DNA of 64,000 nt. Source: Saccharothrix luteola. Lineage in GTDB: Bacteria > Actinomycetota > Actinomycetes > Mycobacteriales > Pseudonocardiaceae. Location of the stretch: positions 1 to 64,000 of the forward strand of contig NZ_JAJHUO010000045.1 of NCBI RefSeq assembly GCF_020859565.1, in the 5' to 3' direction. The position numbers and the translations under genes are program-made. Positions 403 through 40,089 of this stretch are shown here, piece after piece. Under the pieces are notes generated by a model. That model had not been told where the DNA came from. It made no database searches and saw only the letters and a program-made list of their open reading frames with translations. Within the stretch, counting starts at the first letter, position 1. Each line of letters starts with the position of its first letter.

Positions 403-1908
403 TCAGCGGCCGTAGAGGACCCGGACCAGCCGCACCACGTGCCGGATCGTGCGAGACCCGCGGTCGTACGTCATCGGGTTCAGCAGAGCCCCGAACCGCT
501 TCCGCGTCACGGAGTGGGCATAAGCGAACTCCCGCAGCCCGTCCTCCCCGTGGATCCGCCCGAACCCCGAATCCCCCACCCCGCCGAACGGCAACCCGGG
601 CACCGACGCGTACGCCAGCACGGAGTTGATCGACACCATCCCGCACCGCAGCCTGTCCGCCAACTCCTCGCCCCGGTTGCGCGAGTACACCGACGCGCCG
701 AGCCCGAAGGCCAGCGAGTTGGCCCGCCGGACCGCCTCGTCCGCATCGGCCACCCGCGTCACCACCAACGTCGGCCCGAACGTCTCCTCGGTCACCGCGA
801 TCGAGTCATCGGGCACGTCCACCAGGACCACCGGCTCGACGTACGGCGGCCGGATCGACTCCAACCCACCGACCACCGCCCGCCCGCCCCGCTCCAACGC
901 GTCGGCCACGTGCGACTGGATCACGTCGACCTGCTTGGGCATGGTGATCGGCCCGAAGTGCGCGTCGGCCTCACCACCGGGCCGCAACTTCTTCGCCTTC
1001 TCCACCACCAACCCGATGAACTCGTCGTACACCGCGTCGGCCACGTAGACCCGCTCGACCCCGGCGCACGTCTGCCCGGAGTTGAAGATCCCGCCCCACA
1101 CCGCGCCGTCCGCCGCCGCCCGGACGTCGGCGTCCTCGGCCACGATCAGCGGGTCCTTGCCGCCGCACTCCACCAACACCGGCGTCAACGACGACGCGCA
1201 CGCCGCCATCACCTTCTTGCCCGTCGCCGTCGACCCGGTGAACGCCAACTTGTCCACCCCGGAGGTGCACAACGCCGCGCCGGTCTCGCCGAACCCCGTC
1301 ACCACCTGCAGCACCGGGAACTCCGGCACCACCTCGCCGAACGTCGACGCCAGGAACACCCCGACCCCCGGCGTGAACTCCGACGGCTTGAACACCACCG
1401 CGTTCCCCGCCGCCAACGCGTACGCGATGGACCCCATCGGGGTGAACGCCGGGTAGTTCCACGGCCCGATCACGCCGACCACGCCCAACGGCCGGTACTC
1501 CAACGTCGCCGCGTGGTTGTACATCAACATCCCGGGCGCGACCTTGCGCTTGCCCAGCACCTTGGGCGCGTGCTTCGCCGCCCAGTGCAGGTGGTCGATC
1601 ACCAGCGCCAGCTCGGCCCGCGCGTCGTCGGCGGACTTGCCGGTCTCGGCGCTGATCAGCACCTGGAACTCGTCCAACCGCTTGAGCAGCAGCTTGCGCC
1701 ACGCGTCCAACCGCGCCCGCCTGCCGTCGAACCCCAGCTCCGCCCAGAACGCCGCCGCGCCCCGGGCCACCCGCACGGCCTCCCGGACGTCGTCCTCCGA
1801 GCTCACCACGTGGTGGGCGACGACCTCACCCGTGCGGGGGTCGAGCGAGGCGAACCTCCGCTGCCCGTCGTCGGCCCGCGCCGGAGTGGTGGGAACGGTC
1901 TGCGTCAT
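403..1908 (-). CDS. NAD(P)-dependent aldehyde dehydrogenase
   Basis: A 501-residue ALDH-superfamily enzyme of normal length, oxidising an aldehyde to the acid with NAD(P). Visible hallmarks are the oxyanion Asn in GPWNYP (about residue 151), the cofactor loop FTGSTATG (223-230), the general-base Glu247 in LVECGGKDP and the nucleophile Cys281 in NSGQTCAGVERVYV. The closest subgroup by motif is the succinate-semialdehyde/coniferyl-aldehyde type, but the substrate cannot be fixed from sequence. The start is the ATG at 1908. The gene stands alone, and its 3' end abuts the 22-bp repeat array. Confidence 0.93.
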   Translation of the reverse strand: MTQTVPTTPARADDGQRRFASLDPRTGEVVAHHVVSSEDDVREAVRVARGAAAFWAELGFDGRRARLDAWRKLLLKRLDEFQVLISAETGKSADDARAELALVIDHLHWAAKHAPKVLGKRKVAPGMLMYNHAATLEYRPLGVVGVIGPWNYPAFTPMGSIAYALAAGNAVVFKPSEFTPGVGVFLASTFGEVVPEFPVLQVVTGFGETGAALCTSGVDKLAFTGSTATGKKVMAACASSLTPVLVECGGKDPLIVAEDADVRAAADGAVWGGIFNSGQTCAGVERVYVADAVYDEFIGLVVEKAKKLRPGGEADAHFGPITMPKQVDVIQSHVADALERGGRAVVGGLESIRPPYVEPVVLVDVPDDSIAVTEETFGPTLVVTRVADADEAVRRANSLAFGLGASVYSRNRGEELADRLRCGMVSINSVLAYASVPGLPFGGVGDSGFGRIHGEDGLREFAYAHSVTRKRFGALLNPMTYDRGSRTIRHVVRLVRVLYGR

Positions 1909-6025: not shown

Positions 6026-7612
6026 CTAGAACGGCCAGGTGGCGTCCCGACCGCTCTCCAGCAGCGGGATCATCCGGAAGGCCTGGTCGGTCAGCCCGCC
6101 GAACGCGTACCGGTCGCGAGCGCCGCCGATGCCGCCGCTCGGTGCGTGGCCGAACCGGTAACCGGCGAGGTTCCACGTGTAGAGCGGCACGTCGTCGGGC
6201 ATCGCCCGGTGCACGTCGCCGTCACCCACCTGCTCGTCCGTGATGATCACGACGCGGTCGTGGCGCTTGAAGCTCGACCGCACCGCGTGGGCGGTGGCCG
6301 TGCCGTTGCCGATGAAGTAGCCGTCGGACTTCCAGCGCTCGACCGCCTTCAGCAGCGACTCGCCCCGGCTCAGCCGGAACTGGCGCGTGCTGTTCGAGAA
6401 CGACACCACGTCCGCCTGCTCGCACCGCGACCCGAGCGCGATCCCGAACACCGCCGCCGCGTCCCACCGCATGAGCGTGCCGTCCTTGGCGAAGGGCGCG
6501 TTCATCGAGTACGACGTGTCGATCAGCACCAGCGTGCGGCCGGGCAGCTCGGGCACGTTGCCGAGCGAGTGCGTGATCGCCCGCTCCAACGCCCACGCCC
6601 ACCGCAACGACGGCGCCGCGCGGTACGCCGACAGGAACCGCATGGGCAGCTGCCGGGACCGGGCCACCTGACCGGCGTCCGCCAACCGCGCCGCGACCTC
6701 CTCCGCCACCGCGTCCGACACCCCCGCCTCGTCGAAGTTGCGGAGGTTGCGGAGCAACGCCATGTACCCCATCGACGGGATCAGCGACTCCCACACCTCG
6801 GCCGTCAGCGGACCCTGCGACCAGCCCGCGACCGACTCCCACGTCATGCCCGCCGCACGCAGCGTCGCAGCCGCGGTGTCGCGGTCCTCGTGGAACAGCG
6901 CGCGCCGCCGTTCCACCGGCCACGCCATCAGTTCCGCGCGCGAGCGCAGCACACCGAGCGACTCGGGCACGCCGTCGGCGCGGTTGTTGCGGCGGTCGAG
7001 GATGTGGGTGAACAGGTCGCCCTGCCAGTCGGCGCGCGGCGTCGGGTGCGTCAGGTTCAGCACGTCGGCGAACCGGAAGCCGCGTGCCTCCGAGTCCCAC
7101 TTGGCCGACGCGCGCTCGTCGTACAGCCGCCGCACCGCGTCACCGACACCGCGCTTGACCGGCTTCGGCAGCGCGCGGCCGTGCCGCGAGGTCCAGTAGG
7201 CCAGCAGCTCGCCCGGCTCGTCGGCCCGGTGCAGCACCGAGTCCACGACCTGCCGGGACATGCCCGGCGCGCCGGACTCGAGCCGTGCCTTGACGAAGTG
7301 CGCGGCGCCGACGATGGCCGCCGTGCGCATGTTCGCCTCGCCGCGCAGCCACGCCAGGAACCGGGCCGTCCAGTCGGGGTCGGCGGCGGTCGTGGCGCGC
7401 ACCAGCGCGGCGTAGCGGTCGTCCCGCTCGCCGGCGGACTCGTAGAACGTCTGCTCGCCCACCATGTTGGTGACCGCGAGCAGGAAAAGTTCAGACTTGG
7501 GCTCCCGCGCATAACCCGGAGCGCCCTCGTGCGTGCGCCCGCTCGCCACGGCCTCGGACACCACCGGGCCGGCCACGGCCGCGCGCACGCGACCGAAGTT
7601 GAACTTGCTCAT
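6026..7612 (-). CDS. rsr: Rsr, bacterial Ro60 orthologue (TROVE + vWA)
   Basis: A 528-residue RNA-binding protein of the Ro60 family. The N-terminal TROVE/HEAT-like ring (about residues 20-340) binds structured RNA, and the C-terminal von Willebrand A domain carries an intact MIDAS DxSxS motif (DTSYSMN, about residues 360-366). Bacterial orthologues bind Y RNAs and work with exonucleases such as PNPase in RNA quality control. The ATG at 7612 follows a GAGGGGCGGG ribosome site; the frame to 7801 runs into the RNA gene. Its immediate upstream neighbour on the same strand is the Y-RNA-like gene, the arrangement known for rsr loci. No rtcA or rtcB is seen nearby. Confidence 0.93.
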   Translation of the reverse strand: MSKFNFGRVRAAVAGPVVSEAVASGRTHEGAPGYAREPKSELFLLAVTNMVGEQTFYESAGERDDRYAALVRATTAADPDWTARFLAWLRGEANMRTAAIVGAAHFVKARLESGAPGMSRQVVDSVLHRADEPGELLAYWTSRHGRALPKPVKRGVGDAVRRLYDERASAKWDSEARGFRFADVLNLTHPTPRADWQGDLFTHILDRRNNRADGVPESLGVLRSRAELMAWPVERRRALFHEDRDTAAATLRAAGMTWESVAGWSQGPLTAEVWESLIPSMGYMALLRNLRNFDEAGVSDAVAEEVAARLADAGQVARSRQLPMRFLSAYRAAPSLRWAWALERAITHSLGNVPELPGRTLVLIDTSYSMNAPFAKDGTLMRWDAAAVFGIALGSRCEQADVVSFSNSTRQFRLSRGESLLKAVERWKSDGYFIGNGTATAHAVRSSFKRHDRVVIITDEQVGDGDVHRAMPDDVPLYTWNLAGYRFGHAPSGGIGGARDRYAFGGLTDQAFRMIPLLESGRDATWPF

Positions 7613-7655
7613 TTTCCCGCCCCTCAACCGCCGAATTGCCGAGAGGAGCGACCAC

Positions 7656-7811
7656 GAACTCCACACGTGCCCGAGATCAAATCGGTGAAGGTACATCAGG
7701 CGCTCTGGCCACTGAGCTACACCGGCTGCGCCGATGACGGGATTCGAACCCGCGACCACCCCATTTACAGTGGAAGTAACCCTCGCCTGCGCACCGGGCA
7801 CGTGTGAAGTT
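7656..7811 (-). ncRNA. Y RNA (YrlA-like) with a circularly permuted tRNA domain
   Basis: On the minus strand the order is closing-stem 5' arm (7811-7795), T arm GCGGG-TTCGAAT-CCCGT (7753-7737), acceptor 3' strand CATCGGC (7736-7730), linker GCA, acceptor 5' strand GCCGGTG (7726-7720), TA, D arm GCTC-AGTGGCCA-GAGC (7717-7702), closing-stem 3' arm (7673-7657). The acceptor strands pair over 7 bp with one G.U, and the outer arms over 17 bp with one G.U. The tRNA halves are thus in reversed order and there is no anticodon loop. Bacterial Y RNAs bind Rsr through a stem formed by their ends and carry a tRNA-mimicking module. The location 44 bases upstream of rsr supports the call. The exact ends are inferred. 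Confidence 0.8.
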
Positions 7812-7832
7812 GTGCGCTCCCGAGATCAGTTC

Positions 7833-7873
7833 GTCCGGCGGCGTGATTTCACCTGAAGAAGTAGCCGCTGGAC
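7833..7873 (-). other. Hairpin between nucS and the Y-RNA-like gene
   Basis: GTCCAGCGGC (7873-7864) pairs with GCCGCCGGAC (7842-7833) with one mismatch, enclosing a 21-base loop that itself contains TTC-AGGT-GAA. There is no T-tract. It could end nucS transcription or be an extra domain of a longer Y RNA transcript. A TACTCT sequence just upstream (about 7900-7895) fits a -10 element. Confidence 0.45.
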
Positions 7874-7956
7874 TTCGCACCGGGTGCGCACATCAGAGTA
7901 ATCGGCCCGACGCGGCGATCAACCGGTTTTCCGGGTCGACGCGATCGGGCCGGCGA

Positions 7957-8616
7957 TCAGAACAGCCGGAACTCGTCCGACTCGATCCCGCGCAGCGCGT
8001 CGTAGTCCAGCACGACGCAGCGGATGCCGCGGTCCTCGGCGAGGGTCCGCGCCTGCGGCTTGATCTGCTGCGCGGCGAACACGCCCCGCACCGGCGCCAG
8101 CAGCGGGTCGCGGTTGAGCAGTTCCAGGTAGCGGGTCAGCTGTTCGACGCCGTCGATCTCGCCGCGGCGCTTGATCTCCACGGCCACGGAGGCGCCGGAC
8201 GCGTCGCGGCACATCAGGTCGACCGGCCCGATCGGGGTCGGGAACTCGCGCCGCACCAGGGTCCAGCCGTCGCCGAGGGTGGTGACGTGCTCGGCCAGCA
8301 GCTTCTGCAGGTCCGCTTCGACGCCGTCCTTGACCAGGCCGGGTTCCGGGCCGAGCTCGTGCTTGGAGTCGTGCAGCACCTCGGCCAGCGTGATGATCAG
8401 CTTCTCGCCCGCCTTGTTCTGCACGACCCACATGTCCGGGTCCTCGATCAGCCAGCACGGCGGGCTCATCCAGTTCAGCGGCTTGTACGCGCGGTCGTCG
8501 GAGTGGATCGACACCGAGCCGTCCGCCTTGATCAGCAGCAGCCTCTGCGCCATCGGCAGATGGGCGGTGAGACGTCCGACGTAGTCGACCTGGCAGCGAG
8601 CGATGACGAGGCGCAC
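7957..8616 (-). CDS. nucS: Mismatch-specific endonuclease NucS/EndoMS
   Basis: A 219-residue protein matching actinobacterial NucS along its length (the [20 protein letters not shown] start, the NWMSPPCW loop, and the nuclease core GPVDLMCRD ... [20 protein letters not shown] with its D...ExK active site). NucS cuts both strands at mismatches and replaces MutS/MutL in most actinomycetes, with the beta clamp as partner; the C-terminus ending EFRLF fits the clamp-binding tail. The GTG at 8616 gives the family's usual length, and the ATG at 8679 would add 21 residues. Confidence 0.95.
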
Positions 8617-39845: not shown

Positions 39846-40089
39846 CGTCTTGTCCCTTTCCTGAAAGTGGCCGCCGGGTCCTCGATCCTTCGAGGTGAAC
39901 CGGAGCCGGGCTCGACCAGACAGTGTGCCAGATCGGCCGTCACGTGCTGCAACGCGCGGCTTCGCGCGCTTGTTCCCGGTGGCCGGGGTCACAACCGCTC
40001 GCCGATCGTGGTCGACCATTTGGCGCACGAGGTAACCGCTGAACTACAGACAGCAGCGGTCCACGCTGCGCGGACGCAACACTGTCGGT

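Follow-up and report, generated by a model that had tools for sequence, protein, structure and literature searches.

Just upstream of rsr on the minus strand of the window (the whole stretch of 64,000 nt of DNA analysed here) lies what we take, with considerable confidence, to be a YrlA-type Y RNA, the predicted RNA partner of the neighbouring Rsr protein, which contains a circularly permuted tRNA module with four arms (Table 1). The module runs from the anticodon-type arm through the variable loop, T arm, acceptor 3' strand, GCA, acceptor 5' strand and UA to the D arm and, as far as sequence can tell, corresponds to a tRNA opened between positions 26 and 27 that has all four of its arms. Part of this had been recognised in an initial annotation and can be read directly in the DNA: the T arm and acceptor 3' strand precede the acceptor 5' strand and D arm across a GCA joint, U8-A9 and the TTCGAAT T loop are of tRNA type, and a 17-bp stem encloses the module. 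That annotation was wrong, however, in placing the 17-bp stem where the anticodon arm would be, as a covarying arm of the anticodon type precedes the T arm.

Permuted tRNA mimicry by YrlA is not new, having already been published; indeed, the bacterial Y RNA of PDB entry 6CU1 superposes on tRNA with a circular permutation (PMC11472068, citing Wang 2018). (Note that papers given by PMC number are cited for the portions covered in our analysis.) Bacterial Y RNAs are thus known to mimic the tRNA elbow and acceptor, and it is the covarying anticodon-type arm, together with a canonical 5-nt variable loop before the T arm, that the RNA of the window adds to YrlA. PMC8394870 likens YrlA to the D, T and acceptor arms and, in the portion covered, names only these; an anticodon arm is absent from the consensus structure of the Rfam family RF02553, and the covered portions of PMC8394870, PMC11472068 and PMC7790460 describe none for a Y RNA. 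Within this scope, our view that an anticodon arm is novel in Y RNAs is provisional.

Table 1. Features of the Y RNA locus in the window, and six deposited phage tRNA genes that overlap matches to covariance model R1 (the five rows under a locus handle alone give the positions of the five named phage genes that have none beside them)
Feature	Position	Strand	Sequence or basis
YrlA-type Y RNA with 17-bp end stem, inner Y stem and permuted tRNA module	7657..7811	minus	RF02553, model R1
17-bp end stem	7811-7795 with 7673-7657	minus	16 Watson-Crick pairs and one G-U
Anticodon-type arm (tRNA positions 27-43)	7759..7775	minus	TTCCA CTGTAAA TGGGG; covariation in relatives
5-nt variable loop	7754..7758	minus	TGGTC; 15-48 covariation
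T arm	7737..7753	minus	GCGGG TTCGAAT CCCGT; strict pattern in relatives, alignment of 44 copies
Acceptor stem as closed hairpin	7720..7736	minus	CATCGGC, GCA, GCCGGTG; covariation, 44 copies
Acceptor 3' strand	7736-7730	minus	CATCGGC
Acceptor joint	7729-7727	minus	GCA
Acceptor 5' strand	7726-7720	minus	GCCGGTG
U8-A9 (7719-7718) and D arm (7717-7702)	7702..7719	minus	D arm GCTC AGTGGCCA GAGC; alignment of 44 copies
rsr, Ro60-like TROVE protein, 528 aa	6026..7612	minus	PF05731, E 2.2e-18
Short Y RNA, small loop replacing the tRNA module	7813..7890	minus	motif CCCGGTGCGNAG, TACTTC, GATCTCGGG; R1 and motif
VanLee, deposited tRNA-Arg(tct)			overlapping R1 match, 113.6 bits
10KY502B (L129), deposited tRNA-Thr	1292-1359		overlapping R1 match, 88.2 bits
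CcrColossus, deposited tRNA-Gln			overlapping R1 match, 80.6 bits
GiJojo, deposited tRNA-Arg(cct)			overlapping R1 match, 47.6 bits
LuckySocke, deposited tRNA-Ser(gct)			overlapping R1 match, 44.0 bits
Frankenweenie, deposited tRNA-Pro(tgg)			overlapping R1 match, 40.2 bits
Overlapping deposited tRNA, L122	1188-1262
Overlapping deposited tRNA, L123	1274-1347
Overlapping deposited tRNA, L125	1204-1275
Overlapping deposited tRNA, L127	1245-1335
Overlapping deposited tRNA, L130	631-698

Family membership and conservation beside rsr

The YrlA model RF02553 matched the RNA over its full length (model positions 1-114, window positions 7670-7783) with 40.4 bits and an E value of 7.2e-7 in the whole genome. 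The covariance-model check proposed in the initial annotation therefore gave a full-length match, but at a score below the gathering cut-off of 69 bits, which was reached neither by this RNA nor in any of 60 genomes of the family; because of this score we treat the RNA as YrlA-type but divergent from the curated family, and do not count it as a formal member of RF02553. Like YrlA (RF02553; Salmonella YrlA, PDB 6CU1), it lies beside a gene for a Ro60/Rsr (TROVE) protein, its ends pair in a long stem with a conserved inner part (98.9% of cells paired in helix 1 and 98.1% in helix 2), and its T arm, acceptor-like hairpin and D arm stand in permuted order. The inner stem between the end stem and the tRNA-like module is irregular, and the fold of a 201-nt stretch had a z-score of -4.9, with 0 of 200 shuffles equally stable. 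The identification as a Y RNA made in the initial annotation stands on the family model, the position beside rsr and covariation. yrlA is also listed in some mycobacteria (PMC9569102).

To follow the RNA in relatives, we scanned genome contigs with the Rsr protein and kept the best 80 of 153 relatives (80 loci from 79 assemblies, L093 and L095 sharing one), the proteins of which are 54-89% identical to Rsr over the best segment, the closest among these 80 being from Saccharothrix (85-89%). Related TROVE proteins are also found in PDB entries 9L5Y and 9KOP. The Rsr of one of these loci (L039; G007, C40:98225-101362) has an apparent intein: it matches intein-containing proteins, with intein_Nterm just under the cut-off. 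A strict pattern of T arm, acceptor hairpin, UA and D arm occurred at most 1 kb upstream of rsr in 68 of these best 80 loci, and in none of the 80 when either the opposite strand or the last 1 kb of the locus was used as a control. Conservation next to rsr, on which the initial annotation had made its reading depend, is accordingly what we found. For the most part the 12 loci without the strict pattern appear to be misses of the pattern itself, judged by a covariance model (R1) that we built from 44 aligned copies, namely that of the window and 43 from the 80 loci. R1 gave 135.5 bits over 7666-7801 in the window, which is itself one of its 44 rows, and at least 60 bits in 78 of the best 80 loci, with L074 at 55.7 bits and nothing in L071. 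The fair figure is that for the loci that gave no row to the model, 35 of 37 of which reach 60 bits, as the other 43 match by construction. R1 gives good scores to these Y RNAs, which the present Rfam cut-off excludes.

Genomes sampled more widely couple the RNA to TROVE genes. Among the 60 genomes of the family, ten have TROVE, and in nine of the ten a YrlA match lies upstream of that gene (three of these nine covering only model positions 24-84), the tenth, G026, being without an upstream match; adjacency was judged from the positions in the match list. TROVE is absent from some genomes that do have a full-length YrlA match, among them G019 (38.5 bits). In a sample of 296 genomes of the class, which includes the window's own genome and may include others equal to model rows, TROVE is present in 37, and in 34 the matches listed include a full-length one to R1 that reaches 65 bits, a line chosen after the scores were seen. 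All 34 have TROVE, so that the line captures 34 of the 37 TROVE genomes. The TROVE genomes below it comprise G090 (57.8 bits) and G069 (43.8 bits), with weaker matches beside the TROVE gene, and G230, with a match of 51.9 bits about 300 kb from it. Below about 52 bits, full-length R1 matches occur without TROVE, as in G169.

The end stem is separated from the start of rsr by only 44 nt, and one might ask whether the structure is a cis-acting leader of rsr, serving for example in autoregulation by Rsr, rather than a separate RNA. A hairpin of the CTCC/GGAG type does overlap the rsr ribosome-binding site (7650-7615, minus strand), as it does within the 50 nt before rsr in several relatives, and a pattern scan of 7500-8000 found no promoter or terminator. 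This hairpin could serve to terminate the Y RNA or to switch translation on and off, and its signal is weak (mean z of -1.1, and z < -1.5 in a third of 81 loci, measured against simple shuffles only). Against a leader speaks the distance from the end of the module to the rsr match, which varies from 68 to 928 nt across genomes, as do the other Y RNA units often found at the same rsr locus and the strong copies that lie off the TROVE contig, such as G160 C5:161566-161701 (100 bits) and G349 C4:23291-23423 (83 bits). We consider a leader in place of a separate RNA to be very unlikely; the two roles are in any case compatible. Elsewhere in the window, an L31-Actinobacteria ribosomal protein leader was found at 39869-39909 (minus strand, 48.7 bits).

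Covariation of the stems and the anticodon-type arm

Covariation was measured in an alignment (A2) of 44 copies chosen for having an anticodon-type arm, namely the 45 that passed the strict arm test described below minus L111, which was dropped because its arm looks spurious. In A2, 97.9% of 1602 cells pair, whereas shuffles reach 78.1% and slid versions no more than 48.7%, and both sides have changed in 287 cells, compared with 82.9 in shuffles; the shuffles ignore relatedness among the copies. The acceptor stem was paired in 100% of cells, with both-side changes at six of its seven pairs in the 44 copies, and helices 1 and 2 of the Y stem had both-side changes at 10 of 15 pairs; the D stem was invariant in the 44 rows. 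The initial annotation had named the lack of covariation in the end stem or the acceptor stem as grounds for giving up its reading, and both stems covary. For the end stem we used covariation on the alignment in place of flank swapping, a test in which the copies' own 3' flanks gave a mean of -61 kcal/mol and swapped flanks -48 kcal/mol, and in which the own flank was best in only 22 of 69 copies, since with so conserved a stem sequence foreign flanks pair too. The loop that closes the acceptor stem is 3-11 nt long in the 69 copies and most commonly 4 nt, and the three-base closure that the initial annotation had put forward as special is not so.

A tertiary contact covaries as well. C48 of the variable loop would pair with G15 (7712) as a Levitt pair, and in the 69 copies positions 15 and 48 are G-C in 42, A-T in 22 and otherwise in 5 (Fisher p 1.9e-16; p 4e-9 when one copy per genus and state is counted, with both standard states present within 7 genera). 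Position 7 is G in 68 of the 69. (From alignment A1 we left out L095, which has the same assembly and module sequence as L093.) On the evidence of these alignments, compensating changes preserve the acceptor, T and anticodon arms as well as the 15-48 pair, and the D arm hardly varies, from which it follows that the module should fold like the L of a tRNA; the 15-48 covariation within a permuted molecule is a natural experiment on which tRNA contacts matter. The Y RNAs of L085 and L104 have a D arm of another tRNA type (TGGTGTAA..GCAGCAC, compared with the usual TAGCTCA..GAGC), which hints at parts replaced by other tRNAs.

The fourth arm appears, judged from sequence, to be of the anticodon type and in the tRNA register before the T arm; its loop is CUGUAAA, with GUA at the anticodon place. 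Because the rows of A2 were chosen for the arm, arm pairing is biased upward there, and the fair test is one that scores all 69 copies in a single fixed register, with 5 pairs closing a 7-nt loop and a variable loop of 5 nt. In that register 255 of 345 cells pair, the mean of 2000 shuffles being 208 and the maximum 229, whereas sliding the partners by up to 3 gave at most 194. The innermost pairs, 30-40 and 31-39, are formed in 103 of 138 cells (shuffle mean 68, maximum 83). A competing register, preferred by the minimum-energy fold of the window RNA alone, paired 150 of 345 cells in the 69 copies, and we rejected it because the relatives decide against it. RNAalifold left the arm unpaired in the first alignment, in our opinion because this stretch was loosely aligned. 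Consistent with the chosen register, R1 positions 27-65 fall on the anticodon arm, variable loop and T arm of the genome's true tRNAs. We also restored the tRNA order and gave the sequences to ARAGORN to probe the arm; it called 65 of 69 (5 of 69 as they stand), a result that says nothing about the anticodon arm because 580 of 690 controls with scrambled arms were called too.

A strict arm test that demands the three inner pairs was passed by 45 of the 69 copies, L111 among them, and failed by 24. In the 45, U33 is present in 42, A38 in 43 and a purine at position 37 in 40, and positions 36-38 are UAA in 25; the tRNAs of the window's genome (47 calls from 30 loci, in which overlapping loci repeat some genes) all have U33 and a purine at 37. 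We then extended the comparison to 124 copies of at least 62.9 bits by R1, drawn from 96 sources (the window and 80 bacterial, 10 phage and 5 plasmid loci). Among the 123 that have a T arm, 86 have an arm with at least three inner pairs and U33 and 37 do not, a count that is slightly generous in that it takes the best of three variable-loop lengths and R1 was built from arm-bearing copies. The arm with U33 is spread over 68 of the 80 bacterial loci (the best of 153), the window, five phage records and one plasmid. Since the bearers include a Xanthomonas phage, with the loop CTTGTAA, and a Caulobacter phage, with CTGTTAA, it is not confined to Actinobacteria. The triplet at the anticodon place takes 32 different forms in the 86 copies.

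Relation to tRNA genes and possible roles

The presence of four arms with tRNA spacing, a canonical variable loop, a Levitt pair (arms and pair seen here by covariation) and anticodon-like loops raises the question of whether this is a real circularly permuted tRNA gene, the product of which is cut and rejoined to work in translation. We hold this to be extremely improbable. The acceptor ends are closed, by GCA in the window and by 3-11 nt in the 69 copies, so that there is no free end able to carry CCA; the RNA ends are tied into the Y stem; and the triplet at the anticodon place changes freely. The circularly permuted tRNA genes of algae and archaea share the permuted order of tRNA parts, but they are processed to normal tRNAs, whereas in this Y RNA the permutation seems to be part of the final molecule, the ends of which form the Y stem. 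Another parallel is tmRNA, likewise a tRNA mimic read by tRNA enzymes (see also PMC8394870), from which the RNA of the window differs in having neither a free acceptor end nor a tag-coding part, and in having Rsr as its predicted partner.

The linear tRNA model RF00005 gave the window RNA 24.2 bits at 7729-7790, under its cut-off of 29 bits, and ARAGORN found no tRNA in the window. In phage relatives, ARAGORN does call parts of such RNAs that look like tRNA, and among the seven bacterial relatives given to it there was one such case, a tRNA-Asn placed inside the Y RNA of Murinocardiopsis (L118), which bears out the forecast of the initial annotation that tRNA finders would miss the RNA or call fragments of it.

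Resemblance to the host's own tRNAs bears on another alternative, that the locus is what remains of two tRNA genes in tandem, with the 3' half of the first followed by the 5' half of the second. From the acceptor 5' strand through position 14 (GCCGGTGTAGCTCA), the RNA has the same sequence as the genome's tRNA-Thr(UGU). We considered an origin from one host tRNA on this account, but the acceptors of three other genera equal that of tRNA-Thr(UGU) too, and when 29 isoacceptors, taken from 30 of 71 tRNA matches, were compared with the 69 copies, 13 of the copies matched one of them. Adjacent tRNA genes do match R1 in part: the second-best match in the genome, at 37.6 bits compared with 135.5 for the Y RNA, is an adjacent tRNA-Glu/tRNA-Asp pair (C45) that covers model positions 27-105, and by analogy the partial matches to 27-105 or 27-106, of about 40-64 bits, that occur in many genomes of the class sample look like adjacent tRNA pairs. 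A remnant would decay, however, whereas here both acceptor strands pair with each other and covary, both ends of the RNA lie in a conserved Y stem, and the place beside rsr is kept across Actinobacteria. As a full account the tandem remnant is refuted by the covariation of the acceptor stem and Y stem in the alignments, and we give it hardly any credence. As an origin of the permutation in what we regard as a Y RNA, a tandem tRNA pair whose outer halves were lost is attractive and possible.

Such Y RNAs also appear among the tRNA genes deposited for phages. A relative of Rsr is encoded in 93 of 50,697 phage records, and 6 of the 10 phage loci that we examined (L121-L130) carry, close to the Ro gene, a deposited tRNA that overlaps an R1 match (Table 1). 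Five of the six fall short of the Rfam tRNA cut-off of 29 bits; the sixth, of 10KY502B, passes it with 33.3 bits, its longer stretch scoring 46.7 bits with the YrlA model. The Y RNA loop agrees with the deposited anticodon or amino acid in VanLee (UCU), 10KY502B (UGU) and CcrColossus (CUG), and ARAGORN itself makes four of the six calls. Deposited genes of this kind would inflate phage tRNA counts. The tRNA-Gln of Arthrobacter phage Atuin was considered as a further misannotated Y RNA and left out of the count, since it scores well as a tRNA (57.2 bits) and heads a pair of adjacent tRNA genes. Between phage tRNA genes in L121 (3579-3742) and L123 (3467-3699) we noticed a manA RNA motif just below the cut-off.

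The YrlA stem holds Rsr and its tRNA-like end binds PNPase, and YrlA is a substrate of DusA and TruB (PMC8394870). By analogy with this and other published work on Deinococcus and Salmonella, the Y RNA of the window would be held by Rsr through its base-paired stem and would contact PNPase and tRNA enzymes with its tRNA-like end, and so may tether or gate an RNA-degrading Rsr-PNPase machine; the Y RNAs here would presumably be transcribed as discrete RNAs. With less support, the anticodon arm may also let readers of the anticodon loop, such as modification enzymes and anticodon nucleases, recognise the Y RNA. A triplet free to change within a mostly fixed setting of U33, R37 and A38 argues that the loop is recognised as such, and against decoding. 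U33, a purine at 37 and U36-A37-A38 are the make-up of loops bound by anticodon-loop modification enzymes and anticodon nucleases.

A tentative reading, which we think unlikely, goes further: these RNAs would be four-arm look-alikes of tRNA whose anticodon loop is kept because proteins read it, acting as a decoy or sensor of tRNA-cutting toxins, with the decoy or sensor handed to Rsr-PNPase, in phages, which carry the pair of Rsr and Y RNA, as in bacteria. The variability of the triplet is as expected for such a decoy or sensor. It has been suggested that the tRNA-like domain of YrlA might inhibit the anticodon nuclease, and cleavage of tRNAs in Salmonella was reported to leave no detected YrlA fragments (PMC7790460). 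If many actinobacterial and some phage Y RNAs do keep four arms, the mimicry may serve proteins that read the anticodon loop too, and its purpose, be it modification, a decoy for tRNA-cutting toxins or quality control of damaged tRNA, becomes testable.

Short Y RNAs and arrays at rsr loci

Directly upstream of the tRNA-like unit is a second, short Y RNA, missed in the initial annotation, to which R1 gave 29.2 bits (E 3.4e-4). The Y stem motif occurs twice in the window, a count reached in 2 of 100 shuffles. The 5' motif had no occurrence in 359 kb of control sequence; the 3' motif had 123 and so is no evidence by itself. Across 81 loci (the window and the best 80 of 153 relatives), at least one strict-motif unit was found in 78 and two to five in 62, and both kinds of Y RNA occur at 45, the kind being judged approximately by the presence of a T loop within the next 140 nt. 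A short Y RNA would bind Rsr via the common stem without offering a tRNA-like end.

An alignment (A4) of 38 of 41 short units, from which L082, L095 and the second unit of L102 were left out, had 82.2% of cells paired, compared with 73.7% in shuffles, and a covariation score of 0.215, compared with 0.091, with 0 of 500 shuffles as high. On four of five measures none of the 500 shuffles came up to the units, and 7 of the 500 reached their count of further pair types. The outermost pairs of the stem are often open, pair 2 in 27 and pair 3 in 28 of 37 cells.

The rsr-yrlBA-rtcBA operon of Salmonella (PMC7790460) likewise combines rsr with more than one Y RNA; the locus in the window differs from it in that both Y RNA units lie upstream of rsr and RtcB is on another contig of the genome. 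A third kind of unit was seen upstream of rsr in L063 and L112, with something similar in L075: in L063 and L112 it consists of a hairpin followed by a T-arm-like hairpin (of the GCGGG TTTCGATA CCCGC type), with no evident D arm. By eye, a Rhizobium plasmid (L135, 3040-3720) has several Y-RNA-like units between rsr and rtcB, the first of them with an anticodon-like hairpin with the loop TCGTTAA.
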